NCBI GenBank assembly: GCA_016928495.1
Contig: JAFGKQ010000084.1
Location: 1 to 13,070 of the forward strand
DNA: 13,070 nt
Reading direction: 5' to 3'
Source: Candidatus Fermentibacterales bacterium
GTDB taxonomy: Bacteria > Fermentibacterota > Fermentibacteria > Fermentibacterales > JAFGKQ01
This document shows, in pieces, positions 1 through 11,589 of this stretch. The translations under genes and the position numbers were made by a program. Below the pieces are notes generated by a model. That model saw only the letters and a list, made by a program, of their open reading frames with translations, did not search any database and was not told the DNA's origin. Position 1 is the stretch's first letter; each line of letters begins with the position of its first letter.

Positions 1-12
1 CTACGAGTTGCC

Positions 13-936
13 TCATCGCGCGCAGAGCTCCTCGAGAACCCTGTCCCGAAGCTCGTCCAGGAGCTCCCGGCAGAGCGGGATGCAGTTGTAGATGGGACAA
101 CCCGACAGCGTGCACTCGGCGATCTCCCGCGAGAAGGGAATCCTGAGCGCGATAGGCAGTCCCTGCTGCCGGCAGTACCGGTCCAGCTCCTCGTAGCCCG
201 GGCTGTCCCGGTTGACGACGACAAGCGTCCGAAGGCCCATCTGGTCTCTGGCTACCTCCACGGCGATCCGGAGGTCGTGCAGGCCGAAGGGCGTAGGCTC
301 GGTCACGAGGAGAAGCAGATCCGAGCCCCGGACCGTTTCCACGAAGGGGCATGCCGAGCCCGGAGGTGAGTCCAGAACGGCTATCGTCCTTCCGGGACCG
401 GGAACGCTGCCGAGCATCGAGCACTTGAGCTCCCTGATGACGGGTACCGGCATCGGCGAGCCCACGTTCATCCGGCCGGCGCCGTAGCCCATGCCCCCGG
501 CAGTCCCGAGCTCGAGGATCCCGAGGGGAAACAGCTCTTCGGAGATGGCTGCGCTCGGGCACCCCGTGACACAGCTGCCGCACCCGTGGCACAGCTCCGG
601 GAAGACCATCACCCCTGCTCCGGTCACGGCGATCGCGTTCCATGCGCATCTCTCCGAGCAGGTTCCGCACTTCGTGCAGGAGCCCTCGTCGACGATGGGG
701 ACCAGGACGCCGACCTCACGCTCGGTTGCGATCTCCGGCTTGAGGAACAACGCCGAGTCAGGCTCCTCGACGTCGCAATCCAGATACAGAGGCCTCTCGT
801 CGGGCGCCAGGGACGACGAAAGAGCAAGGGCGAGACTCGTGGCGACCGTTGTCTTCCCAGTCCCGCCCTTGCCGCTTCCGACGCTCACCAGCAGGGGCCT
901 GGAGCTCATCTCGCGCTGCTCGGCCCCGTTAGCCAC
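13..936 (-). CDS. MinD/Mrp-type P-loop ATPase with inserted 2x[4Fe-4S] ferredoxin domain
   Basis: This 307-residue protein is a cytoplasmic ParA/MinD-superfamily ATPase. A deviant Walker A motif (GKGGTGKTT) lies at residues 22-30, and a DCDVEEPD switch-like motif follows at 53-60. Two ferredoxin-type Cys clusters are inserted in the ATPase fold: C87, C90, C93, C97 and C116, C119, C122, C126. A VLDSPPG stretch near 187-193 fits the Walker B/switch II region. ATPases of this build accompany orange protein (ORP)/MTH1175-type genes and are thought to help assemble or insert metal clusters; that role is inferred. The gene is the last of a tight - strand series and overlaps the stop of the zinc-ribbon gene by 8 bp when read from a GTG at 936. 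An ATG at 909 (residue 10) is an alternative start, and neither has a decisive ribosome binding site. Such ATPases often occur as pairs, so a second copy may lie just outside the left edge. Confidence 0.9.
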   Translation of the reverse strand: MANGAEQREMSSRPLLVSVGSGKGGTGKTTVATSLALALSSSLAPDERPLYLDCDVEEPDSALFLKPEIATEREVGVLVPIVDEGSCTKCGTCSERCAWNAIAVTGAGVMVFPELCHGCGSCVTGCPSAAISEELFPLGILELGTAGGMGYGAGRMNVGSPMPVPVIRELKCSMLGSVPGPGRTIAVLDSPPGSACPFVETVRGSDLLLLVTEPTPFGLHDLRIAVEVARDQMGLRTLVVVNRDSPGYEELDRYCRQQGLPIALRIPFSREIAECTLSGCPIYNCIPLCRELLDELRDRVLEELCAR

Positions 937-1129
937 GCCTCATCGGCTTGCCGCACTTGGGGCAGGAGACGTTGTAGCATGGGGTGCCGATCTGATGGGG
1001 TACCCTGTGCCCGCAGGAGGGGCATACGCACTCGCCCCCCGGGCCTGCAGCCATCGGGCCTCCCATCCTGCCGCCTCCCCCTCCGCGCCCCTGTCCCGCT
1101 CCTCCGCCTCTTCCTCCTGATCTACCCAT
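929..1129 (-). CDS. Small Gly-rich zinc-ribbon protein
   Basis: This 66-residue protein has a Gly/Arg/Met-rich N-terminal half (about residues 1-32). A compact Cys-rich C-terminal half follows, with C34, C36, C39, C51, C56 and C59, including two CPxCG knuckles (CPSCGH and CPKCGK) and a VPH segment between them. This is a zinc ribbon or rubredoxin-like metal site. I chose the ATG at 1129 because reading further upstream gives low-complexity sequence that overlaps the neighbouring NifX-like gene, and because a purine-rich AAAGGAAAG lies just upstream. Similar short proteins sit beside ORP/MTH1175-type genes, and the position here between a NifX-like gene and the Fe-S ATPase fits that. Its own role is unknown. 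It could be a metal or Fe-S carrier, or a structural partner of the ATPase. Confidence 0.8.
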   Translation of the reverse strand: MGRSGGRGGGAGQGRGGGGGRMGGPMAAGPGGECVCPSCGHRVPHQIGTPCYNVSCPKCGKPMRRG

Positions 1130-1181
1130 TCCTGTTGCTTTCCTTTCTCTTCTTGCCGTTCGTCGATGACACGGGAGCGGC

Positions 1182-1556
1182 TCAGTGGTCGTGGGCGTGA
1201 CCGGACCCGCCCGGGCAGGGGCTTCCGCCCCGGAGGTTGCCCTGGAGGAAGGCCCGAACCGTCTGGCCGACCGTGCCGGAAGCTCCCGTGCTGCTCTCGA
1301 TCCCGAACTCGGAGAACAGCGCCATGGCTCTTCTACCCATGCCGCCGGCAAGGATCACCCTTGCTCCGCTCCGTTCGAGGAGCATGGGAACCTCCCCCGG
1401 TGAATGGCTCGCGTAGAAGGGATTCGACAGTGAGCTGACGGCTCCGATCTCACCGTTCTCTATCTCCACCATCGTGAAGAAGGGGCATCTGCCGAAGTGC
1501 TCGGCAACGGGGCTTTCCAGCCCTTCGTCGCTCTCCGAGGGTACCGCAACCAGCAT
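1182..1556 (-). CDS. NifX/NifB-type dinitrogenase Fe-Mo cofactor-binding domain protein (copy 1, His-tailed)
   Basis: This is a single-domain protein of 124 residues in the Nitro_FeMo-Co (PF02579-like) fold family, which includes NifX, the NifB C-terminus, MTH1175 and the Mo-Cu orange protein. Support comes from the MLVAVPS start strand, the AEHFGRCPFF segment with C24, the GGMGRRAM segment at about 71-78, and a G-T-V-x-x-x-V-R-A-F-L-x-G ending. The ATG at 1556 has a strong AAGGAG site 4 nt upstream. The C-terminus carries a further Cys (C114) and alternating His residues (H120, H122, H124), which suggests an added metal-binding tail. It lies 32 bp downstream of an equally long paralogue. Proteins of this fold bind a metal cluster or precursor, but there are no nif structural genes here, so a nitrogenase role is unlikely. 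The metal is not known. Confidence 0.87.
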   Translation of the reverse strand: MLVAVPSESDEGLESPVAEHFGRCPFFTMVEIENGEIGAVSSLSNPFYASHSPGEVPMLLERSGARVILAGGMGRRAMALFSEFGIESSTGASGTVGQTVRAFLQGNLRGGSPCPGGSGHAHDH

Positions 1557-1588
1557 CGCGCTCCTTTCAGCCCGGGACGGGACCGTCC

Positions 1589-1963
1589 TCAGGACGCGCC
1601 AGTCGTGCCGTAATGGGCATCGGTGCTCGCCGATGAGAGCTCTTCCAGCTTGCCGCCAGAGAGGGCCTCGACAGCCTCGGCGAGTGTGAGCTCCCCGGAG
1701 CGGAAGCACCGGGCTCCCGCACCGAGGAGGACGGAGAACGCCTTAGGCCCGAAGTTGCCCGCGATGACCGCTTCCGCACCCCGGTTGCAGATCAGCTCTG
1801 CCGCCCTCACTCCGGCGCCTCCGGGCTGCTCGAGCGCCGGGTTGGGCATGGACTCGTACTCGCCCGTGCCCGTGTCATGGAAGACGTAGAAGGGGCACCT
1901 GGCGAACACCTGGCTCACCCTGGCGCCGGCCCCTTCGCCCGTGGAGGCGAGAGCCACCAGCAT
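1589..1963 (-). CDS. NifX/NifB-type dinitrogenase Fe-Mo cofactor-binding domain protein (copy 2)
   Basis: This is a second single-domain Nitro_FeMo-Co family protein, also 124 residues. It begins MLVALAS, has the motif FARCPFY with C23, and has the family-typical AVIAGNFGPKAF segment at about 66-76, followed by GKLEEL near the end. Extra cysteines are at 59 and 86, and the His-rich tail of copy 1 is missing. The start is the ATG at 1963, one base after the stop of the DUF5320-like gene, so translation is probably coupled; an AAGGGC stretch lies upstream. Equal length, adjacent position and shared F-x-R-C-P-F-aromatic motif indicate an old tandem duplication with divergence. The two copies may form a heteromer or handle different steps of one metal cluster; that is inference. 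Confidence 0.87.
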   Translation of the reverse strand: MLVALASTGEGAGARVSQVFARCPFYVFHDTGTGEYESMPNPALEQPGGAGVRAAELICNRGAEAVIAGNFGPKAFSVLLGAGARCFRSGELTLAEAVEALSGGKLEELSSASTDAHYGTTGAS

Positions 1964-1964
1964 C

Positions 1965-2333
1965 TCAGCTCGCGCCCTTCTTCTTGGACGCGTCCGTCGC
2001 GGTCTTCTCGATCTCGCCGATCCTCGCGGAAATGAGATCGAGCTGCTCGCTGAGCCACTCGGCCCTGGAGCGAAGCATGCCGAGCTCGCCCTGGGGCTCG
2101 ACGGCTGCCGGGGCATACCCGAAGCGGATCCAGCCGGGGACTCCGCCACTGGCGTAGTACTGGTTCCTCCAGCCCCGTCCGCCACGCATGCCGCCGAAGC
2201 GGGCACCACCGTTGAAGCCTCCCCAGCGAGGGCCGCTGGCGTACCCGGGTGCCGGGTATCCCGCGCAGTACCCCATGGCTCGCCCCGTCATCGGTCCCAT
2301 TCCAGCAGGTCCGGTTCTGTCTCCACCTGGCAT
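1965..2333 (-). CDS. DUF5320-like Gly/Met-rich protein with C-terminal coiled coil
   Basis: This 122-residue protein starts with the hallmark MPGGDxTGPxGMGPMTGR segment of DUF5320 (residues 1-18), followed by GYCAG. It continues as a Gly/Arg/Tyr-rich low-complexity stretch to about residue 75. The C-terminal part (about 84-110, LGMLRSRAEWLSEQLDLI...) is a predicted amphipathic or coiled-coil helix, and the end is Lys-rich. The function of the family is not established; its members recur next to MTH1175/ORP-type proteins and Fe-S MinD ATPases, as here. The ATG at 2333 is preceded by AGGAAAG and lies 5 bp after the stop of the PadR-type gene. A role in oligomerisation or as a metal-cluster scaffold partner is a guess from composition and context. 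Confidence 0.83.
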   Translation of the reverse strand: MPGGDRTGPAGMGPMTGRAMGYCAGYPAPGYASGPRWGGFNGGARFGGMRGGRGWRNQYYASGGVPGWIRFGYAPAAVEPQGELGMLRSRAEWLSEQLDLISARIGEIEKTATDASKKKGAS

Positions 2334-2338
2334 CTTTC

Positions 2339-2770
2339 CTACCCCTTTCCGTGACTGCCCGAGCTTCCCGCTCCCTCGCCGTCAAGACGCTCGAGAAAGG
2401 AGTCGAGCAGGTTCCTTGTGGTCCTCAGATCGGCTGCCCAGGCATCCAGGGCGGCCGATCCGCTCTCGGTGATCGTGTAGAGCCTTCTCGCCGGCCCCGG
2501 CGTCTCCGTATCCCACCTGGACCGGACGAGCCCCTGGTCCTCCATGGAACGGAGAACCCTGTAGATCGTGCTCATGTCGAAGGACGAGAGCTCCTGAAGG
2601 CCGAACTCGCCGATGCCTTCCGCCAACTGGTAGCCATGGGTCTCGCCCTTCCCCAGAAGAAGGAGCAGAACAGGCTCGAGAAAGCCGCTGACCCTCCTGG
2701 CCTGCGGCTGGTCCCAACCATGCCCCCTCGGACCGTGCCGACAGCCTCGACCCCAGGCTCTTCCCGTCAT
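2339..2770 (-). CDS. PadR-family winged-helix transcriptional regulator
   Basis: This 143-residue protein has a PadR-type winged-helix domain from about residue 29 to 105. Visible signatures are LEPVLLLLLGKGETHGYQLAEGI, the FDMSTIYRVLRSMEDQGLV recognition-helix region, and the RRLYTITESG wing. A short C-terminal helix (about 107-130) would make the dimer contacts. A Cys/His/Gly-rich N-terminal extension (C10, H12, H17) could sense metal or redox state, which is speculative. The ATG at 2770 is preferred because AGAGAGG lies about 11 nt upstream; a GTG at 2779 would add three residues. It is the first gene of the ORP-like operon, with the next gene 5 bp downstream, and the three-half-site element at 2792-2824 lies directly upstream. 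It probably controls its own operon and perhaps the divergent peptidase gene. Confidence 0.9.
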   Translation of the reverse strand: MTGRAWGRGCRHGPRGHGWDQPQARRVSGFLEPVLLLLLGKGETHGYQLAEGIGEFGLQELSSFDMSTIYRVLRSMEDQGLVRSRWDTETPGPARRLYTITESGSAALDAWAADLRTTRNLLDSFLERLDGEGAGSSGSHGKG

Positions 2771-2791: not shown

Positions 2792-2824
2792 TGCACGTAT
2801 CAGATATATGCAACGTGCATATAT
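2792..2824. promoter_or_regulatory. Three alternating half-sites with 12-bp period (putative PadR operator)
   Basis: Three 9-bp half-sites lie at 2792-2800 (TGCACGTAT), 2804-2812 (ATATATGCA) and 2816-2824 (TGCATATAT), each separated by 3 bp. The second and third form a perfect dyad centred at 2814. The first and second form a dyad with 7 of 9 pairs. The element lies between the probable -10 region and the start of the PadR-type gene, in the only clearly AT-rich patch nearby. PadR regulators commonly bind dyads near their own promoter. The match to this protein is inferred from position. Confidence 0.6.
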
Positions 2825-2850
2825 ATGTGCCGATCTACTAACCCCGTCAA
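2820..2850 (-). promoter_or_regulatory. Probable promoter of the PadR/ORP-like operon
   Basis: On the - strand a TTGACG (2850-2845) is followed by AT-rich sequence. CATATA at 2827-2822 stands at 17-bp spacing and TATATA at 2825-2820 at 19-bp spacing. The -35 matches the sigma-70 consensus at 5 of 6 positions, but the -10 is only moderate. The half-site element overlaps the -10 region, which fits repression by blocking polymerase. Confidence 0.4.
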
Positions 2851-2962: not shown

Positions 2963-5041
2963 ATGATGCCCAGGCTGCTGCTGTTCGGTCTCCTGCCCGT
3001 CTTGTCTGCTCCTCTCCTGGCAGGGAGAATGACCGTTCCCTTCCAGTTCGATCTGAGCGACGGGTTCGAGCTCTACACCCACAGGATGTGGGACCGTGTC
3101 GACTGGCCAGGGCTGGAGTGCTTCTCGGCGCCGGGCGAGCCCGCGCTTCCCGCGCTTTCCTGCACCTTCGTCATCCCTCCGGACGCCGGCGATGTCCAGG
3201 TATCGGCCACAGCTCTCGAGAGCGCCTCTCTCGGGGATGGCTTCAGTATTCAGCCCGTGGCTGTTCCGAGGCCTCTCAGCCTGTCGGACCGCCTTGCGGA
3301 GGTCATCGAGCCGGATCCCGTCATCTACGGGCAGGACGCCTTCTGGCCAGCCGATCCCGTAGTCTGCATGCACGACGGGCGCAAGAGCGGGTTCAGACTG
3401 GCAGGGTTCAGGCTCTGCCCCTTTTCCTATGATCCGGCGACCGGCGAGCTCCTCGTGGCGACCTCGATAGAGGTGACCGTGACCTGGACCGATGGCGGTC
3501 AGGTCAGCACCATGTCGGCCCAGCAGATAGAGGCAGCGGGCAGTCAGCTTCAGAGCTGGGTGTGCAACCCCTGGGATCTCGCCGCCTACTCGCCCGCCAC
3601 GGGCGATCCGAGGGACCCCTTGGACTTTCTGGTCGTGACCTCCAGTGACTACGGCGATTCCTTCTCGGAGTTCGTCAGCTACAAGAACGGCACCGGAGTG
3701 GTCACGGAGCTGGTCTACATATCCGATATCCTTTCCTCGACTCCCGGATACGACGACGCCGAGAAGCTCAGGAACTACATTGTCGACAGGTTCGAGAGCG
3801 ACGGGCTTCGCTACGTTCTGCTCGCAGGCGACCAGAACGTGCTTCCCGTTCGCGAGGTCTACCTCTACTGCGAGGGCTATAGTGACAACGCCCCGGCCGA
3901 CCTCTACTTCAGCGATCTCGACGGCACCTGGGACGCCAGTGGCGACCACAACTACGGCGAGCCCGAGGATGACCTCGACCTCTACAGCGACGTCGCGGTG
4001 GGACGGGCCCTGTTCGACAGCGCCAGCGAGGCAGCGATCTTCGTCGAGCGAAGCATGATGTACGAGTCTTCACCTCCTCCGGGAGACTGGCAGTCTACGG
4101 CCATGCTCTGCGGGGGGGGACTGTTCCCTGGCTACACCGGAGCGAAGGTCTGCGACTCCATCGCCGCGTACCTGCCCGTGAGCTGGGACATAAACAAGGC
4201 CTACGAGTCGCCCTCGATACTCGATGGCTTCACCACCCACATAGACATCATCAACGACGGGACCAACTGGGTTCACTATGCCGGGCACGGCAACACGACC
4301 GGCATCTACTGGCAGGGCTATCCCAGCAGCATGATGACCAACTCGATAGCCCAGGGGCTCTACAACGGTGACAAGGCAGGGATCCACCACAGCATCGGGT
4401 GCCATCCCGGCGCTTTCCATTCCGGCGAGTGCTGCGCCGAGGCTCTCTGGCACAACGCAGGGGGCGGGGCCGCTGCCGTGATGTTCAATTCGAGCTACGG
4501 CTGGGAGGGCTATCTACCGGAGATGGGCGTGAGCGAGTGGATGTGCGTCTACCTGACCGAAGAGGCCTTCCAGCTCGGTAACGGCAGGATCGGCGATGCT
4601 TTCGCGACTGCGAAGGACCGCAGGGTCCCTCTCTGGAACGGGGACTACGACAGGGAGCTGTACTGCATAATGGACTGGTGCGCGTACCACGATCCCACCA
4701 TGTGGGTCATCGGAGGCAGCACGGGCGTCGAGGAGCCGGAATCCGCCGTTGCGGGCCCCGGCCTTCCCATCACGTTGGGCATCCCCTGCCCGAATCCGTC
4801 GTTCTCGGGCTCGACGATACGAGTTGCGGCGCAGTTCCCCGGCGCTTCAGGAGTGCTCGAGCTCTACGACCTGGCCGGAAGGGTCGTTCTGAGGACGGAG
4901 CTGAAGGAGCGCGGAGACGTCTTCATCGACCTGACCGGCGACAGGGGAGCCGGGATACCGTCCGGCATCTATCTTCTGAGGCTCGCCTGCCCCGGCGGAG
5001 AGGCAACCTCGAGGCTGGTAGTGCTGCCAGGCTCGAGCTAA
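2963..5041 (+). CDS. Secreted C25 (gingipain-type) cysteine peptidase with C-terminal sorting-like domain
   Basis: This 692-residue extracellular peptidase starts with a signal peptide (hydrophobic core about residues 4-20). A propeptide-like region runs to about 215. The C25 catalytic domain (about 219-585) begins with PLDFLVVTSSDY and contains LRYVLLAGD. The catalytic His is probably H442 in the HYAGHGN motif, and the catalytic Cys C480 in SIGCHPG, 38 residues later, as expected for the family. A DPTMWVIGG segment (577-585) marks the domain end. Residues 608-690 form a beta-sandwich sorting/FlgD-like domain with the hallmarks CPNP, LYDLAGR and GIPSGIYLLRL. The domain resembles type IX secretion signals, but no secretion genes are present here. 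GGAGG at 2955-2959 serves two in-frame ATGs (2963 and 2966). It is the only + strand gene and diverges from the PadR operon. The cleavage specificity cannot be read from sequence. Confidence 0.92.
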   Translation: MMPRLLLFGLLPVLSAPLLAGRMTVPFQFDLSDGFELYTHRMWDRVDWPGLECFSAPGEPALPALSCTFVIPPDAGDVQVSATALESASLGDGFSIQPVAVPRPLSLSDRLAEVIEPDPVIYGQDAFWPADPVVCMHDGRKSGFRLAGFRLCPFSYDPATGELLVATSIEVTVTWTDGGQVSTMSAQQIEAAGSQLQSWVCNPWDLAAYSPATGDPRDPLDFLVVTSSDYGDSFSEFVSYKNGTGVVTELVYISDILSSTPGYDDAEKLRNYIVDRFESDGLRYVLLAGDQNVLPVREVYLYCEGYSDNAPADLYFSDLDGTWDASGDHNYGEPEDDLDLYSDVAVGRALFDSASEAAIFVERSMMYESSPPPGDWQSTAMLCGGGLFPGYTGAKVCDSIAAYLPVSWDINKAYESPSILDGFTTHIDIINDGTNWVHYAGHGNTTGIYWQGYPSSMMTNSIAQGLYNGDKAGIHHSIGCHPGAFHSGECCAEALWHNAGGGAAAVMFNSSYGWEGYLPEMGVSEWMCVYLTEEAFQLGNGRIGDAFATAKDRRVPLWNGDYDRELYCIMDWCAYHDPTMWVIGGSTGVEEPESAVAGPGLPITLGIPCPNPSFSGSTIRVAAQFPGASGVLELYDLAGRVVLRTELKERGDVFIDLTGDRGAGIPSGIYLLRLACPGGEATSRLVVLPGSS

Positions 5042-5325: not shown

Positions 5326-6438
5326 CTAGTATCCACGGTCGAGATCCACCACGTTGAGGTAGTTCCCTCTTCCATCGAAGGCCCTGCGGATGTTCTCGAT
5401 CACATCGTCCCATCTGCCGAGGTCCGAGAAGGGAGAGGCCCCTCTGTGAGGAGAGAGTACTACGTTCGACAGCTCGTGAAAAGGCGTATCGGGAGCATAG
5501 GGGAACCTCCGGCCCGACTCGTCTGGTGCGGGATCGTAGTCGTACCAGACGTCGAGGGCAGCTCCGGCGATCGCGCCGATGCGGAGAGCCTCGTACAGGG
5601 CTCCTCGATCCACTACCGGGCCTCTCGAGACGTTCACCAGCAGGCCTTCCTCGCCCAGTAGCCGCAGCTCTCCAGCGCCTATCAGGCCCCGGGTCTCGCT
5701 GGTCAGGGGAACCGAGACGATGACGGCGTCGCTCCATTCCAGGAAGCTGTTAAGGCCGTCCGGCGTGAAGCGCCGGAACCCGGCGTCGTGAGGCTCCGTG
5801 TCATGCAGGCCGCCCCCGGCGACGTCCTGTGCCCGGTCGGGCCACGCGGTTCGGAGCGCGGCGACCTGCAGGTCGAAGCCCGTCAGCAGACGGTGGACCC
5901 TACGGTTGACCCTGCCGTATCCGAGGAGCCCTATCCTGCGTCCCGTCAAGGGAATGGAGGCTGCCTCGGCGTCTCCGGTGCGCCACCTGCCCTCGCTCAT
6001 CCAGCCATGATGCTGCGGGATCCTGTTGGTCAGGGACAGCAGCAGCGCGAGAGCGTGCTGGGCCGTAAAGCCGGCATTGCCATGACCGTTCACGAGGACG
6101 ACTCCCCGCTCGCGGAGCGGTTCGTCGAACATCGGCAGGAGGTGCTGAACACCCGCACCGGGGTTGATGAACAGCTTCAGCCTGACGGCAGCCGCGAGCA
6201 GCTCCGGGTCGGGCCTCCAGCCGACCATGACCTGTGCCCCGGGAGCCAGGCGGAGCAGAGCCTCGCGTGCGGATTCACCGTTCGGGGGCAGACGCAGCCG
6301 GATCCGGGGGGAGATCTCGCGGATGCGATCTCTGAGGTGTGACTCGAGCCTCTCCTCGGGCTTCCAGAGGAGCAGAACCACCATCGGACCTGCGGCTTGT
6401 CGGCTCTTCTTCCTCGGGGCTCTGCTGACCAGGTTCAT
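5326..6438 (-). CDS. D-isomer-specific 2-hydroxyacid dehydrogenase family protein, NAD(P)-binding
   Basis: This is a cytoplasmic oxidoreductase of about 370 residues, of the D-2-hydroxyacid dehydrogenase superfamily. Visible parts are a substrate-domain stretch (KLFINPGAGVQHLLP), the Rossmann segment RIGLLGYGRVNRRV, the VSVPLTSETRGLI segment, the catalytic Arg region VNVSRGPVVDRGAL, an acidic region ALDVWYDYDP, and the catalytic His in LSPHRGA. Two details differ from the usual pattern. The third Gly of GxGxxG is Asn (GYGRVN), and the usual catalytic Glu position appears as Asp in DYDP, one residue further along. I chose the ATG at 6438 because GGAAGGGG precedes it and a TATTAT -10-like hexamer lies 41 bp further upstream. 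An ATG at 6489 gives 387 residues but lacks a ribosome binding site. Substrate unknown. Confidence 0.87.
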   Translation of the reverse strand: MNLVSRAPRKKSRQAAGPMVVLLLWKPEERLESHLRDRIREISPRIRLRLPPNGESAREALLRLAPGAQVMVGWRPDPELLAAAVRLKLFINPGAGVQHLLPMFDEPLRERGVVLVNGHGNAGFTAQHALALLLSLTNRIPQHHGWMSEGRWRTGDAEAASIPLTGRRIGLLGYGRVNRRVHRLLTGFDLQVAALRTAWPDRAQDVAGGGLHDTEPHDAGFRRFTPDGLNSFLEWSDAVIVSVPLTSETRGLIGAGELRLLGEEGLLVNVSRGPVVDRGALYEALRIGAIAGAALDVWYDYDPAPDESGRRFPYAPDTPFHELSNVVLSPHRGASPFSDLGRWDDVIENIRRAFDGRGNYLNVVDLDRGY

Positions 6439-6478
6439 TCCCCTTCCGGTGGCGGCGCTCTCTCGCAGTCCGAAGCGC

Positions 6479-6484
6479 ATAATA
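6479..6484 (-). promoter_or_regulatory. -10-like hexamer TATTAT upstream of dehydrogenase gene
   Basis: TATTAT on the - strand matches the sigma-70 -10 consensus at 5 of 6 positions and would place transcription start near 6472, about 34 nt before the preferred ATG at 6438. No convincing -35 hexamer lies 16-18 bp upstream. If it is real, the ATG at 6489 is upstream of the transcript and cannot be used. Confidence 0.25.
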
Positions 6485-6509
6485 GACATTCCAAGGTCGG
6501 TGCGGCGAG

Positions 6510-6657: not shown

Positions 6658-6873
6658 TCAGGGCCTCTCAGCCTTGCCCGAAGCACGTGTCAAGCCTCCC
6701 TGGCCTGTGCTGCCGGTGATGCCGGAGCCGGAGCCGCAACGGGAGGCGAAGGGGCAGGACCCGCAGTCACTGCAGGAGGTCTTCGTGTTGCTCGATCTCA
6801 GGAAGAAGGCCCTGAGCAGGAACACGATGGCTGCCAGGACGGCTGCCGCAACGAGGATCGTCTGAAGAGCCAT
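6658..6873 (-). CDS. FeoB-associated Cys-rich membrane protein
   Basis: This 71-residue protein has one N-terminal transmembrane helix (about residues 3-24). A Cys cluster follows (C34, C37, C40 and C46 in SCSDCGSCPFASRC), and the tail is Gly/Ser-rich. Short proteins with one helix and a Cys-rich segment are commonly found directly after FeoB (FeoB-associated Cys-rich family, PF12669-like). The Cys cluster could bind ferrous iron or an Fe-S centre on the membrane surface; that is inference. The ATG shares its A with the last base of the FeoB stop codon (TGATG), so translation is coupled. It is the last gene of the feo operon. Confidence 0.82.
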   Translation of the reverse strand: MALQTILVAAAVLAAIVFLLRAFFLRSSNTKTSCSDCGSCPFASRCGSGSGITGSTGQGGLTRASGKAERP

Positions 6874-8942
6874 CAGGTGAGCAGCCTCGCAACCTGGTTG
6901 AAGGCGAGCACCAGCACCCATGCCAGAGCGGTGAGACCGGCGAACTGGCCCAGGGCCCACAGGGTGCTCCTCGACTCCCGTCGCACCATGACGAAGGTCG
7001 GTATGCATGGCGCCATTACGAGAGCGAACAGGATGATCCCGAGTCCTGTGACAGGATCGTAGCTCTCGCGCAGCCTGTCGGTCAGCTCGCCGGACTCGTC
7101 CCCGCCGAGCGAGAAGAGCATGCCCATCTGGGCCACGAAAATCTCCTTGGCTCCGAGGGCTCCGACAAGCGCAGTACCGATTCTCCAGTCGAACCCGAGC
7201 GGTTTCAGGGCGGGCTCTATCGTCCTCCCGAAGACCCCCAGAGCAGAGCCCGAGATGGCGGAGGCGGAGGCGTGTTCCGGAGCTTCGGGGGCGCTGGCAG
7301 GTGGTCTGGGATAGTAGCTCAGGAACCAGAGGATCACGGAGAAGGCCAGGATGACCGTTGCCGCCTTGAGAAGGTAGTGCCTGACCCTCTGCCAGACATG
7401 AAGCGCTATGCTTCTCGCAGTCGGCATCCTGTAGGGCGGCAGTTCCATGACGAACGGCGTGTTGTCGCCCCTGAGGATCGTGGCCCTGAGGAGCTTCGCG
7501 AGGCCCACGGCGAGCAGCACCCCGAGAACGTAGACGAACCAGAGCACCAGGGCCCTGTTGGCCGGGAAGAAGGCGCCTATTACCAGAAGGTAGATCGGAA
7601 GCCTTGCACCGCAGGACATCAGGGGAAGGACCATCATCGTGGTCAGGCGGTCGCGCCTGTTGTCGAGGACCCTGGTAGCCATTACCGCGGGCACCGTGCA
7701 GCCGAATCCGATCAGCATGGGTATGAAGCTCCGCCCGTGAAGGCCGATCCTGTGCATGAAGCCGTCCACCAGGAAGGCTGCTCTCGCCATGTAGCCCGAG
7801 TCCTCCATGAAGGAGATGGCAAGGAAGAGCAGGGCTATGTTGGGCACGAAAACGAGCACGCCGCCCACACCACCGATGATGCCGTCGACGATCAGAGACT
7901 CGACGGGCCCGTGCGGGAGCACCGAGGCTGCCGCCGAGCCCAGCCATCCGAAGACCCTCTCCAGCAGACCCATCACCGGCGAGCCGATCCCGAAGGTGAG
8001 CCAGAAGGTCACGTACATGGCCAACGCGAAGATGGGCAGGCCGAAGAACCTGTTGAGCACGACGTTGTCTATCTTCTGGGTAAGGGAGGGCGCCGCGGTC
8101 CTGCGCCCCATCCTCCCATTCCTGGTGGCTTCGGCCGCCGCGCCCGAGGCTATGCCGTGTCTGGATTCCGCCAGCAGCACCTCCGGGGCATCGCCCAGGA
8201 GATGATGGAGGTAGTCACCGGCCATCTCGGCCTGTTCGAGAAGTCCCGTCAGATCCTCCCGCGAGACAGCCTGCTCGAGAGTCCGCGCTATCTCCTCGTC
8301 GCCCTCGAGCAGTTTCGTCGCGGCATATCTCCCGGGAAACGGAAGACCCGTGGCAGTCTCGAGCAGAGCCTCGATCCTCGCTATCTGCTCGTCAGCGTCC
8401 CTGCCGAAGCTGATGCGCTGCGCGGGGGAGGGTGCTGCCGCGGCTGCGGCTATTGCCCGCTTGAGCGCGTCGGCGCCCTTTCCCCTGCTCCCGACCGTCT
8501 CGACGACCGGAACGCCGAGAACCTGCGAGAGAAGCGCGGAATCCGGCATGGTGCCGAGCTCCATCGCCTCGTCGCTCATGTTCAGGGCCAGTATCGTGTT
8601 CAGGCCCATTTCGAGGAGCTGGACCGTCAGGTAGAGGTTGCGCTCCAGGTTGGTCGCGTCTATCACGTTGACGACCACATCGGGTCGGTCCCGTATCAGC
8701 ATCCGCCTCGCCTCGCGCTCGTCGTCGGAGTGAGGGGTCAGGCTATAGGTTCCCGGAAGGTCGAAGACCTCGAACCGCGTCTCTCCGAGGCCGAAGCTGC
8801 CAGTTGCGACGTCCACCGTGACGCCGGGGTAGTTCCCGACGTGCTGGCGTGCTCCCGTGAGCGCGTTGAATATGCAGGTCTTGCCGACGTTGGGATTGCC
8901 CGCCAGGGCAACCCTCACGCTGGATGAAGCCGAGGCGGCCAA
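6873..8942 (-). CDS. feoB: Ferrous iron transport protein B
   Basis: FeoB is the inner-membrane ferrous iron transporter with an N-terminal GTPase. All GTPase motifs are visible: G1 GNPNVGKT (15-22), G2 Thr in PGVTV (T42), G3 DLPG (61-64), G4 NMSD (121-124) and G5 VGSRG (150-154). A helical linker follows to about 290. The polytopic membrane part (about 300-689) has the two Gate domains and conserved cysteines in FGCTVPA (C415), SCGARLP (C444) and APCIPTF (C646), which are proposed to line the iron path. At 689 residues it is normal in length. The start is a TTG at 8942 preceded by AAGGA with 5-nt spacing, one base after the stop of the regulator gene. Pro/Ala/Glu-rich residues 545-565 form a loop longer than I would expect. 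No separate feoA or feoC is present. Confidence 0.96.
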   Translation of the reverse strand: MAASASSSVRVALAGNPNVGKTCIFNALTGARQHVGNYPGVTVDVATGSFGLGETRFEVFDLPGTYSLTPHSDDEREARRMLIRDRPDVVVNVIDATNLERNLYLTVQLLEMGLNTILALNMSDEAMELGTMPDSALLSQVLGVPVVETVGSRGKGADALKRAIAAAAAAPSPAQRISFGRDADEQIARIEALLETATGLPFPGRYAATKLLEGDEEIARTLEQAVSREDLTGLLEQAEMAGDYLHHLLGDAPEVLLAESRHGIASGAAAEATRNGRMGRRTAAPSLTQKIDNVVLNRFFGLPIFALAMYVTFWLTFGIGSPVMGLLERVFGWLGSAAASVLPHGPVESLIVDGIIGGVGGVLVFVPNIALLFLAISFMEDSGYMARAAFLVDGFMHRIGLHGRSFIPMLIGFGCTVPAVMATRVLDNRRDRLTTMMVLPLMSCGARLPIYLLVIGAFFPANRALVLWFVYVLGVLLAVGLAKLLRATILRGDNTPFVMELPPYRMPTARSIALHVWQRVRHYLLKAATVILAFSVILWFLSYYPRPPASAPEAPEHASASAISGSALGVFGRTIEPALKPLGFDWRIGTALVGALGAKEIFVAQMGMLFSLGGDESGELTDRLRESYDPVTGLGIILFALVMAPCIPTFVMVRRESRSTLWALGQFAGLTALAWVLVLAFNQVARLLT

Positions 8943-8943
8943 C

Positions 8944-9696
8944 TCAGTCCTTGAGTCTCTCGACCTCGATGGCCAGGGCCTCGTTCAGGCGGAGAGAGAG
9001 CGAGAAGCCCTTGAGCCTCACCTCGACGGGATCGCCCAGCGGGGCTTTCCGCACCATCTCGACCTCCACCCCGGGAAGGATGCCCATGTCCACCAGTCGC
9101 TGCCTGATGCTGCACCTGGCGTGTATGTGGACAACGCGGGCCTTCTCTCCCGGCTGGAGGGAAGCGAGGGTCGGGCCCTCGGCGGACCCTCTCCATCTCC
9201 CCGCTCTCCCTCGGTGGTGCCCGGGCAGAGAGGCGGGCTCATGGTGCATCACGCGGCCGGTCGGCTCACACTCGCGGAACCTCTCCGATATGCTTCCCCC
9301 GAGGCACGGGGAGGACTCCATGAACTGGGTGAAGGCAACGAGATGGGAAAGCGTCTCGGTGCTCAGGTGGTGCTCGAGCGCACAGGCGTCCCGTTCCGCG
9401 GCATCCTCGTCAACCCCCAGGATCTCGCTGAGGAACCGGTGCAGGAACTCATGCCTCGAGCGCACGTTCTGCGCGAGCCTGAGCCCCTTGTCGGTGAGCT
9501 GGAGAGTCTCGTGGGCCGTATAGTGGACATAGCCGTCTCTGTCGAGCCTCTGTAGAGCCTGGCAGACGCTTGCCATGCTCACTCCCCTGGCTGTTGCTAT
9601 GTCGCTGACCCTTGCGGTGCCGCCGTCCTCCTGGAGCTGGTATATGGCTTCCAGGTAGTCCTCGAGGCTCTCGGATATGGTGCCAATGAGAGTCAA
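8944..9696 (-). CDS. DtxR-family metal-dependent repressor fused to FeoA-like domain
   Basis: This 250-residue regulator has a winged-helix domain (about residues 1-65), the DtxR metal-binding dimerisation domain (about 66-140), a His/Arg/Gly-rich linker (about 150-172) and a FeoA/SH3-like domain (about 174-248). Metal ligands can be placed by comparison with DtxR and MntR. C105, E108 and H109 match the iron-type C-x-x-E-H site of DtxR. D13 and E16 match the MntR-type D-x-x-E at the N-terminus, where DtxR has Met10. H82 corresponds to DtxR H79, and H86 takes the place of Glu83. The C-terminal domain keeps the FeoA signature RQRLVDMGILPG and PLGDPVEV. The start is a TTG at 9696. As first gene of the feo operon under a DtxR-like operator, it probably represses feoB when iron is sufficient. 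Confidence 0.92.
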   Translation of the reverse strand: MTLIGTISESLEDYLEAIYQLQEDGGTARVSDIATARGVSMASVCQALQRLDRDGYVHYTAHETLQLTDKGLRLAQNVRSRHEFLHRFLSEILGVDEDAAERDACALEHHLSTETLSHLVAFTQFMESSPCLGGSISERFRECEPTGRVMHHEPASLPGHHRGRAGRWRGSAEGPTLASLQPGEKARVVHIHARCSIRQRLVDMGILPGVEVEMVRKAPLGDPVEVRLKGFSLSLRLNEALAIEVERLKD

Positions 9697-9771: not shown

Positions 9772-11589
9772 TCAGGCCTCGAGAACGGCCTCCACCCAGA
9801 TCTTCTCCAGTGTGCCCGACCTGAAGAAGAGCAGCTCGGGGCACTCGGGGACTGCCCTGGCAAGAGCGCTCAGGTCCATATCCGATCCCGGGAGTCTCAC
9901 GCCGAGGCCCTCTGAGAGCAATGACGCCGCGTCCGGGTCCCACAGGGGCACATCGACGACCACCTGACAGCATGAGGCGACCTCAGACACCCAGTCTTCG
10001 GGGAATCCGCTCAGGGTCTCCCGGGCGAGCAGGATCGCCGGCCGGACCAGCCCGTCCCGCCCATGCAGCCTGGCGAGCCTGCCGGAGTAATCGAGCGGCT
10101 CGTCGAGCGCTCTGATCCGGTCCAGAAGGTCGAGGGGGAACGGCGATCCGGGTCTGAGAACGACGTCCAGCACGCAGTAGGGGTCTCGCCCCCTCCTGCT
10201 TCTGATGCACTCCGCGATGTCGTCCCTGTGGGCCCAGAGGTCCGACCCGGACACGAGGAGAGACCCGTGCCGGACTGATGGCGGCGGAGCGCTGTCCAGG
10301 CCAGCGCCCCCGGCGTCCAGGTCGATCCTCTGCTCGCCCGGCCAGCCGTCCGTCAGCACCGGTCTGTTGGGCATGTCGAGATCGTAGCCCAGGATGGCTG
10401 CGAGCTCCTCCCTCGCGCCCTCCAGGTCCGAGGGGCTCCAGCCCGGCAGACTGCTGACGTGGTAGGGCGGGAGGGGCTCGTACTCGATCCCGAGCGTCGA
10501 GGCCGAGGCTCTGAGCTCCGTGCCCGGAAGAACTGACAGAGTGAATACCTGCACGTCCTCCGATAGCCCCTCCGACACCAGCCTCCCGGCCGTTTCGAGG
10601 ATGCCGTCGGGAGTGTCCCCCGGCAGCCCGATGATGATGTCCACCACCGGTCGTACGCCCGCCTTTCCCAGCTCCAGGCATCCCCGGATGACTGCGTCCG
10701 GGTCTGCCGACCTCCCGGCGCGCTCGAGGGCCTTCGCGCTCATGGTCTGGAGGCCGACCTCGACGCACGTGAAGCCCGCTGCAGCCAGTTCCGCAGCCTG
10801 CTCCGCACCCACCCCCTCCCCACGGAGCTCGGCGAAGCACGGCAGATGGAACCTGCGAAGCCCCCGTAGCAGCCTGCTCAGGTCGGGCCTGGCGTTGAAG
10901 CAGGGATCGAGGAACACGATTTCCCCCGGGTCCAGCGAGCAGATCCCGGACAACATGGAAACCGCGTCTGCCGCGGAGAGAAGCCTCGGCACCGGCGAGC
11001 TGCGCCTGTAGGAGCAGTAGATGCAGCCTCCGGCGCAGCCCCGCTGCGTCTCGACATAGGCAGCGTCACCCGGGCCGATCGTGATATGGCCCGTCAGGTA
11101 GGGGTTGGGGTACCTGCCGGGCGCCGCTCCGGTCGCCGGAGCTACCACGAGCCTGGGTCCCGGATCCCCCCTTCTGGCAGTGGGACCTTCGAGGTCCCGG
11201 AGCATGTCCGGGAAGACAGCCTCTCCCTCCCCGCACACGGCCATATCGACGGGGGAGCCTTCCAACAGGGGATTGTCAGGGAAGACCTCCGGGCCGCCCG
11301 CGATGATCGTGAGCCCGTCCATGGCGGACCTGAGCCTTCCTGCGAGGTGAAGGGACCTCTCGATGTTCCAGGAGTAGAGGGTGAGGCCCAGCACCGACGG
11401 ACGAAGAGCGCGGATGTGCTCGAAGAGAGACGCATCTCCCAGTGTGTCCGCAGCGTCCTGGGGCAACAGGCACTCGGGGCCGAGGCCGGCCGCTGCCAGT
11501 AGACAGCCGGCCGCGAGTGGGACGTTCCCCGTCGGCGAGAGCGCGGCAGGCTGGTTGAGTGGAAGCTGGAGTAGTAGCGCGTCCCTCAT
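9772..11589 (-). CDS. B12-binding-type radical SAM protein
   Basis: This 605-residue enzyme has an N-terminal Rossmann-like B12-binding-type domain (about residues 1-150) with LGLTLYSWN and an IIAGGPEVFPDNPLL...VCGEGEAVFPDML pattern. The radical SAM domain (about 175-400) has the [4Fe-4S]-binding C185-x3-C189-x2-C192 (RGCAGGCIYCSYR), then VEVGLQT at 276-282, DIIIGLPGDT at 317-326 and LPGTELR at 354-360. The DxHxxG cobalamin-ligating motif is not visible, so cobalamin binding may be lost or base-off without His. Residues from about 411 to 605 match nothing I recognise. The ATG at 11589 directly follows the upstream TGA (TGAATG), indicating coupling to the membrane-protein gene. Substrate unknown; family members methylate or rearrange lipids, tetrapyrroles and natural products. 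The gene ends 20 bp before the dtxR promoter. Confidence 0.88.
   Translation of the reverse strand: MRDALLLQLPLNQPAALSPTGNVPLAAGCLLAAAGLGPECLLPQDAADTLGDASLFEHIRALRPSVLGLTLYSWNIERSLHLAGRLRSAMDGLTIIAGGPEVFPDNPLLEGSPVDMAVCGEGEAVFPDMLRDLEGPTARRGDPGPRLVVAPATGAAPGRYPNPYLTGHITIGPGDAAYVETQRGCAGGCIYCSYRRSSPVPRLLSAADAVSMLSGICSLDPGEIVFLDPCFNARPDLSRLLRGLRRFHLPCFAELRGEGVGAEQAAELAAAGFTCVEVGLQTMSAKALERAGRSADPDAVIRGCLELGKAGVRPVVDIIIGLPGDTPDGILETAGRLVSEGLSEDVQVFTLSVLPGTELRASASTLGIEYEPLPPYHVSSLPGWSPSDLEGAREELAAILGYDLDMPNRPVLTDGWPGEQRIDLDAGGAGLDSAPPPSVRHGSLLVSGSDLWAHRDDIAECIRSRRGRDPYCVLDVVLRPGSPFPLDLLDRIRALDEPLDYSGRLARLHGRDGLVRPAILLARETLSGFPEDWVSEVASCCQVVVDVPLWDPDAASLLSEGLGVRLPGSDMDLSALARAVPECPELLFFRSGTLEKIWVEAVLEA

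Follow-up and report, generated by a model that had tools for sequence, protein, structure and literature searches.

What does an operon that joins two NifX-type proteins to ferredoxin ATPases do in a genome where no nitrogenase genes are found? The question is raised by a gene cluster at one end of a 13,070-nt contig (C170) from a Candidatus Fermentibacterales bacterium. The window analyzed here is the whole of this contig, and the genome is 2.3 Mb in size and 81% complete. We tentatively suggest that the products of the operon form an anaerobic complex in which a metal sulfide, most likely iron sulfide, is held on a scaffold and mobilized. This complex, with a presumed ability to bind metal, would be a relative of IssA that is split into several subunits and combined with ATPases of the ORP type. 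We favor this assignment because the first NifX-type protein (NifX-A) is nearest to MTH1175, DUF5320 is fused to NifX-A elsewhere, the DUF5320 tail is IssA-like in composition, further fusions join the other components, key cysteines are invariant and the predicted operator appears dedicated to this operon.

Gene order, extent and control of the operon

The operon and its predicted control elements comprise the following features.

2822..2850, minus strand: predicted promoter, TTGACG (2850-2845), 17 nt, CATATA (2827-2822), from sequence reading and alignment with sister-family genomes
2804..2824, strand not assigned: predicted PadR operator, ATATATGCA-CGT-TGCATATAT, an inverted repeat with perfect 9-bp arms
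2339..2770, minus strand: PadR-family regulator, 143 aa (PF03551, E 5.3e-17, 62 bits against a cut-off of 27)
1965..2333, minus strand: DUF5320 protein, 122 aa, with a Gly/Arg/aromatic-rich cationic part and a C-terminal coil-like segment (PF17253, E 2e-23, 83.9 bits against a cut-off of 27)
1589..1963, minus strand: NifX-A, 124 aa, MTH1175/TM1290-like (PF02579, E 7e-16)
1182..1556, minus strand: NifX-B, 124 aa, TM1816/PH0822-like, with a His-rich C terminus (PF02579, E 1e-16)
929..1129, minus strand: small Cys-rich protein, 66 aa, with a Gly/Arg-rich tail and C-x-C-P-x-C-G...H...P-C...C-P-x-C-G (six Cys, one His), from alignment of homologues
13..936, minus strand: ATP1, an ATPase of the MinD/Mrp/NifH fold with two inserted [4Fe-4S] motifs, starting at GTG 936 or, more likely, at ATG 909 (Pfam CbiA/ParA-type and two Fer4 matches; predicted structure)
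1..16, minus strand: first codons (MRQLV) of ATP2, a second ferredoxin ATPase, read from the sequence; its remainder probably lies at L038 3167-4048, contig C255

Six genes thus lie on the minus strand in the order padR, DUF5320, NifX-A, NifX-B, Cys-rich and ATP1. They are separated by 5 nt (PadR-DUF5320), 1 nt (DUF5320-NifX-A), 32 nt (NifX-A-NifX-B) and 52 nt (NifX-B-Cys-rich), and the Cys-rich gene and ATP1 overlap by 8 nt with the GTG start of ATP1 or lie 19 nt apart if ATP1 starts at the ATG at 909. This order and close spacing, first noted in a preliminary description of the stretch, are borne out by the open reading frames (ORFs) and by the profile searches which that description proposed; Pfam recognizes PadR, DUF5320, both PF02579 proteins and the ATPase with its Fer4 motifs. 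The extent given there, 13-2770, needs correction at the 3' end. The ATGA at 16-13 overlaps the stop codon of ATP1 with the start of a seventh gene, ATP2, which is truncated at the contig end. Contig C255 ends within a second ferredoxin ATPase at LSGKGGTGKT, and since this is compatible with the MRQLV left on C170, ATP2 probably continues on C255 and the two contigs would join here. Beyond ATP2, C255 carries a hypothetical protein and then convergent 2-oxoacid:ferredoxin oxidoreductase genes.

The arrangement is more than chance, since the order PadR-DUF5320-NifX-A-NifX-B-(Cys-rich)-ATP1-ATP2 is kept in nine genomes from one genus of the sister family (f2; the window belongs to f1). Of the nine, one has NifX-B fused to the Cys-rich protein (L041), and one gave no Cys-rich gene (L043). 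The preliminary description had spoken of an uncultivated lineage, but the system is not confined to one. ATP1 has a match at E<=0.001 in 59 of 60 genomes searched, weaker matches being mere ferredoxins, and its relatives in a scan of named genomes come from Chloroflexota, Bipolaricaulota, Planctomycetota, Omnitrophota, deltaproteobacterial groups, Bacillota, Bathyarchaeota, Asgard archaea, methanogens and others. At 64 loci ATP1 has flanks of 3.5 kb or more on both sides, and there the neighbors include ATP2 (64), NifX-A (60), NifX-B (51), DUF5320 (37) and the Cys-rich gene (27). Because of this spread over many phyla and these recurrent partners, we regard the module as general among anaerobic bacteria and archaea, with the window as one PadR-controlled arrangement of it.

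The perfect inverted repeat lies upstream of padR and overlaps the -10 element of the predicted promoter. In the sister-family genomes TTGAC and TATCAT-like hexamers stand at the same place (alignment A4), and the repeat is also kept upstream of padR. A scan for consensus promoters returned none in the window, and the prediction comes from the alignment with relatives. The promoter looks sigma-70-like, with PadR control. With one mismatch allowed, the operator pattern occurs in 16 of 45 genomes, at about one site each, and in 14 of these 16 it is on the operon contig; a reversed control pattern gave two hits in the same genome scan. The simplest reading is that PadR is a dedicated autorepressor of its own operon, because the conserved operator is found about once per genome and nearly always at the operon.

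The NifX-type proteins, DUF5320 and their partners

Among solved structures, NifX-A best matches MTH1175 (E 4e-19), TM1290 (2e-16) and then D. gigas ORP (9e-9). The closest solved relatives of NifX-B are TM1816 (PDB 1o13/1t3v; E 1e-25) and PH0822 (2yx6; 1e-22), both deposited as hypothetical or 'probable NifB' proteins, and it also matches the C-terminal domain of MrpORP. A tree of 181 NifX domains splits the two into separate clades with local supports of 0.96 (A) and 0.975 (B). D. gigas ORP falls in a subclade of desulfo-type loci within clade A; NifX-A of the window lies outside that subclade and groups with MTH1175/TM1290 with weak support (0.77). The separate clades and different solved relatives rule out a recent duplication. 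Both proteins are indeed 124 aa long and carry PF02579, as first described, but we regard their equal length as incidental, since they belong to separate clades and their orthologues differ in length (about 160-190 aa for NifX-A and about 145-160 aa for NifX-B). NifX-B has HFGRC near its start and a His-rich end. By this comparison the MrpORP motif, CXHFGHCE...CDH (PMC6345978), is only partly kept in it.

The IssA tail is reported to have 15 Gly, 7 cationic and 14 aromatic residues among 70 (21%, 10% and 20%) and an isoelectric point (pI) of 10.7, and has been proposed to wrap anionic thioferrate (PMC5524996). The same study mentions uncharacterized non-thermophilic homologues with Gly-rich tails, named IssX. 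In the DUF5320 protein of the window, residues 1-80 are 29% Gly, 10% Arg and 15% aromatic, and residues 1-75 have a pI of 10.6; neighboring proteins give 10% Gly, 7% Arg and 7% aromatic by the same composition measure. In composition the cationic Gly/aromatic part thus matches the published IssA tail.

DUF5320 is also linked to NifX-A by gene fusion. PF17253 matches at E<=0.001 in 11 of 97 NifX-A proteins from other anaerobes, and the single-ORF fusions in L072, L077, L083 and L049 pass both Pfam cut-offs. To exclude an effect of Gly-rich composition, a profile was limited to the last 45 residues of 34 DUF5320 proteins. It found 12 of 33 NifX-A tails at E<0.1, ten of them at E<0.001, and gave no hit among 990 shuffles or among 212 other C-terminal segments. 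In L063 (Anaerolineae), a NifX-A protein with an IssA-like tail, Pro-rich and then Gly/Tyr/Trp/Arg, adjoins PadR, ATP1 and ATP2. Among the papers that we searched, no study treats DUF5320; these fusions would newly tie it to the IssA- and ORP-like NifX systems. A separate observation is the single ORF at L083 6395-7270, in a Sedimentisphaerales metagenome-assembled genome, where a ferredoxin domain with two [4Fe-4S] motifs is fused to NifX-A and to a tail of the DUF5320 type, so that electron carrier, scaffold and tail form one protein.

The small protein had been labeled a zinc ribbon, a name that it does not bear out. No Pfam family scores above its cut-off (the best zinc ribbon reaches 19.5 bits against 25), and alignment of 38 homologues gives invariant C34, C36, C39, H45, C51, C56 and C59. 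The C-terminal core of its predicted model is of fair confidence, and a fold search with this model gave no match at E<=0.001. We therefore reject a simple C4 zinc ribbon, given the six invariant Cys and one His and the lack of a fold match. With 41 homologues, the protein at 929-1129 makes up a small family in which these residues follow a Gly/Arg-rich tail.

Other single-ORF fusions join NifX-A to NifX-B (L086, L108 and L118; in reversed order in L077), the Cys-rich protein to NifX-B (L041), NifX-A (L087) or DUF5320 (L065), ATP1 to ATP2 (L058) and Mrp to NifX-B (L083, L086 and L113). A third, divergent NifX-type domain is fused to the Cys-rich family at L052 3871-4506, L134 5032-5721 and L113 7391-8005.

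Conservation of the eight ferredoxin Cys is at least 99% across 100 ATP1 and 93 ATP2 sequences. A further Cys, seven residues past the switch-II Asp, is present in 100/100 ATP1 and 93/93 ATP2. NifH has a Cys at the same switch-II spacing (DVLGDVVC), and there it is a cluster ligand. Alignments of the predicted ATP1 structure (predicted local distance difference test score, pLDDT, 91) with ApbC, MinD, HypB, BchL and NifH are about equally good, so that the fold alone leaves the function undecided.

How does the operon compare with the known systems? The ORP complex of D. vulgaris consists of Orp3, Orp4, Orp5, Orp8 and Orp9/MrpORP; Orp3 and Orp4 are tandem MinD-type ATPases with two [4Fe-4S] motifs each, and MrpORP, whose NifX-type domain binds a discrete [3Fe-4S] cluster, transfers a cluster to them (PMC6345978). 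ATP1 and ATP2, in tandem and with two ferredoxin motifs each, fit this description of Orp3/Orp4, a comparison made by description, with most of ATP2 probably on C255. The single-domain NifX-A is in the same broad clade as ORP, and NifX-B resembles the NifX-type domain of MrpORP. In contrast to the ORP system, the operon has no Mrp fusion, adds DUF5320 and Cys-rich proteins, and has its NifX-A outside the ORP subclade. NifX-B is a single-domain protein, and a partial Mrp gene lies separately on C190, its sequenced part leaving no room for a NifX extension, in a genome that is 81% complete. The D. vulgaris orp operons are divergent and sigma-54-dependent (PMC3897727, PMC6345978), whereas here there is one operon with a predicted TTGAC-N17-type promoter and a PadR operator. 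Thus, the likeness to ORP/MTH1175 loci that had first been noted holds for the MTH1175, TM1290 and then ORP matches of NifX-A and for the tandem ferredoxin ATPases, but not for MrpORP, and a close tie to the Mo-Cu ORP system is not upheld by the tree, the missing fusion or the promoter.

IssA of Pyrococcus furiosus stores thioferrate, and MTH1175 has been placed in the IssA clade (PMC5524996). Here, NifX-A is closest to MTH1175, and the cationic Gly/aromatic-rich stretch exists in a separate protein, DUF5320. Whereas the IssA tail is on the same protein, the DUF5320 stretch would act in trans and is followed by a coil-like C terminus, although other taxa have a similar stretch in cis. The operon also adds ATPases, NifX-B and the Cys-rich protein. 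NifX, NafY and NifB of nitrogenase maturation have the PF02579 domain in common with these proteins. No nitrogenase or nifEN genes occur in this genome or order, in agreement with the preliminary description; PF00148 is absent from the genome and from 41 same-order relatives, and on this ground we reject a role in nitrogenase maturation. By the features compared, the operon resembles ORP in its ATPases and IssA in its scaffold and tail, but belongs fully to neither system.

A proposed function and its alternatives

In the complex that we suggest, NifX-A would be the globular scaffold where an anionic metal sulfide forms, and DUF5320 would supply the cationic Gly/aromatic-rich tail in trans, docking through its C-terminal coil. 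NifX-B and the six-Cys/one-His protein would take small fragments and hand them to clients. ATP1 and ATP2 would form a heterodimer that has a switch-II Cys in each subunit and four [4Fe-4S] ferredoxin clusters in all. Like NifH with its partners, this heterodimer may use ATP and low-potential electrons to reduce the cluster and thereby release or load it. PadR would repress its own operon from the single operator until relieved by a metal or sulfide signal.

Several points weigh against this proposal. Its chief weakness is that the metal content of these proteins is inferred. Tail composition is a weak argument, and Gly/Arg-rich tails can also bind nucleic acid. NifX-A of the window stops soon after its PF02579 domain, without a tail, and the NifX-A tails of the sister family end coil-like, yet have no significant match to the DUF5320 coil (E about 1). 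Among the 64 well-flanked loci, 20 lack both a Gly-rich NifX-A tail and a DUF5320 or Cys-rich gene nearby. In addition, the genome already encodes an IscU/NifU-type scaffold and two members of the ferritin family, so that another system for iron storage or assembly is not obviously needed. The ferritin-family genes also rule out the absence of ferritin as an argument for IssA-type storage. The absence of SUF is likewise a weak argument, since most of the order lacks the SufB/D core but does have IscU/NifU. In the scan of 45 order-level genomes, the SufB/D core was found in only three (two weakly) and IscU/NifU in 42.

Alternatively, the operon could serve dedicated cofactor insertion and electron delivery without storage, with ATPases that act like NifH/BchL or ApbC and with NifX-A and NifX-B carrying a discrete Fe-S or heterometal cluster to one client enzyme. 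The SIMIBI-type ATPase fold and the invariant switch-II Cys would suit this, as would the facts that the NifX-type domain of MrpORP, which NifX-B matches, binds a discrete [3Fe-4S] cluster and that MrpORP passes a cluster to Orp3/Orp4 (PMC6345978). However, no client enzyme is fixed beside the operon, and the Gly/Arg-rich tails of DUF5320, the Cys-rich protein and many NifX-A proteins suit a polymeric anion better than a discrete cluster. We consider this alternative somewhat unlikely.

It is improbable that the operon makes a true Mo-Cu sulfide complex of the ORP type, with the S2MoS2CuS2MoS2 cluster of that system and the link to cell division that has been proposed in Desulfovibrio. The tandem ferredoxin ATPases fit those described for Orp3/Orp4 and the NifX-type protein is of the ORP clade (PMC6345978), but NifX-A falls outside the ORP subclade, MrpORP is lacking, and promoter type and regulator differ (PMC3897727). 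We are similarly doubtful of a metal or sulfide stress operon, in which DUF5320 and the Cys-rich protein would sequester excess metal, PadR would sense it and the ATPases would recycle it. A dedicated autoregulator and small proteins rich in Cys/His and Gly/Arg would be expected of such an operon; on the other hand, neither in the window nor in the sister genomes does the operon include a transporter gene, and ferredoxin ATPases would be superfluous for simple sequestration.

The scaffold and mobilization complex that we favor can be taken further, to a version that we hold to be rather unlikely. Here DUF5320 and NifX-A would be a split thioferrate or thiometallate store and, together with the ATPases, NifX-B and the six-Cys/one-His protein, a general machine of anaerobes, one that would store iron together with sulfide and use ATP-gated reduction to release Fe-S units. 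If so, IssA and ORP would be two specialized forms of one ancient system in Bacteria and Archaea. The storage and delivery of iron and sulfide in strict anaerobes are largely open, and IssA and ORP have so far been studied separately. Through the fusions, a single system comes to include DUF5320, the Cys-rich family that has no Pfam model, both NifX clades and the two ATPases, and the division of labor proposed for it is testable with recombinant proteins.

Other genes in the window

The same contig carries a ferrous iron uptake unit, in which FeoB adjoins a DtxR-type repressor with a FeoA domain (6873-9696). A Peptidase C25-family protein with a type IX secretion sorting domain is divergent from the operon (2963-5041). 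At the far end, an ATG22/MFS-type transporter is truncated by the contig end (12429-13070). The window also encodes a D-2-hydroxyacid dehydrogenase-like protein (5326-6489) and a radical SAM protein with a B12-binding domain (9772-11589).

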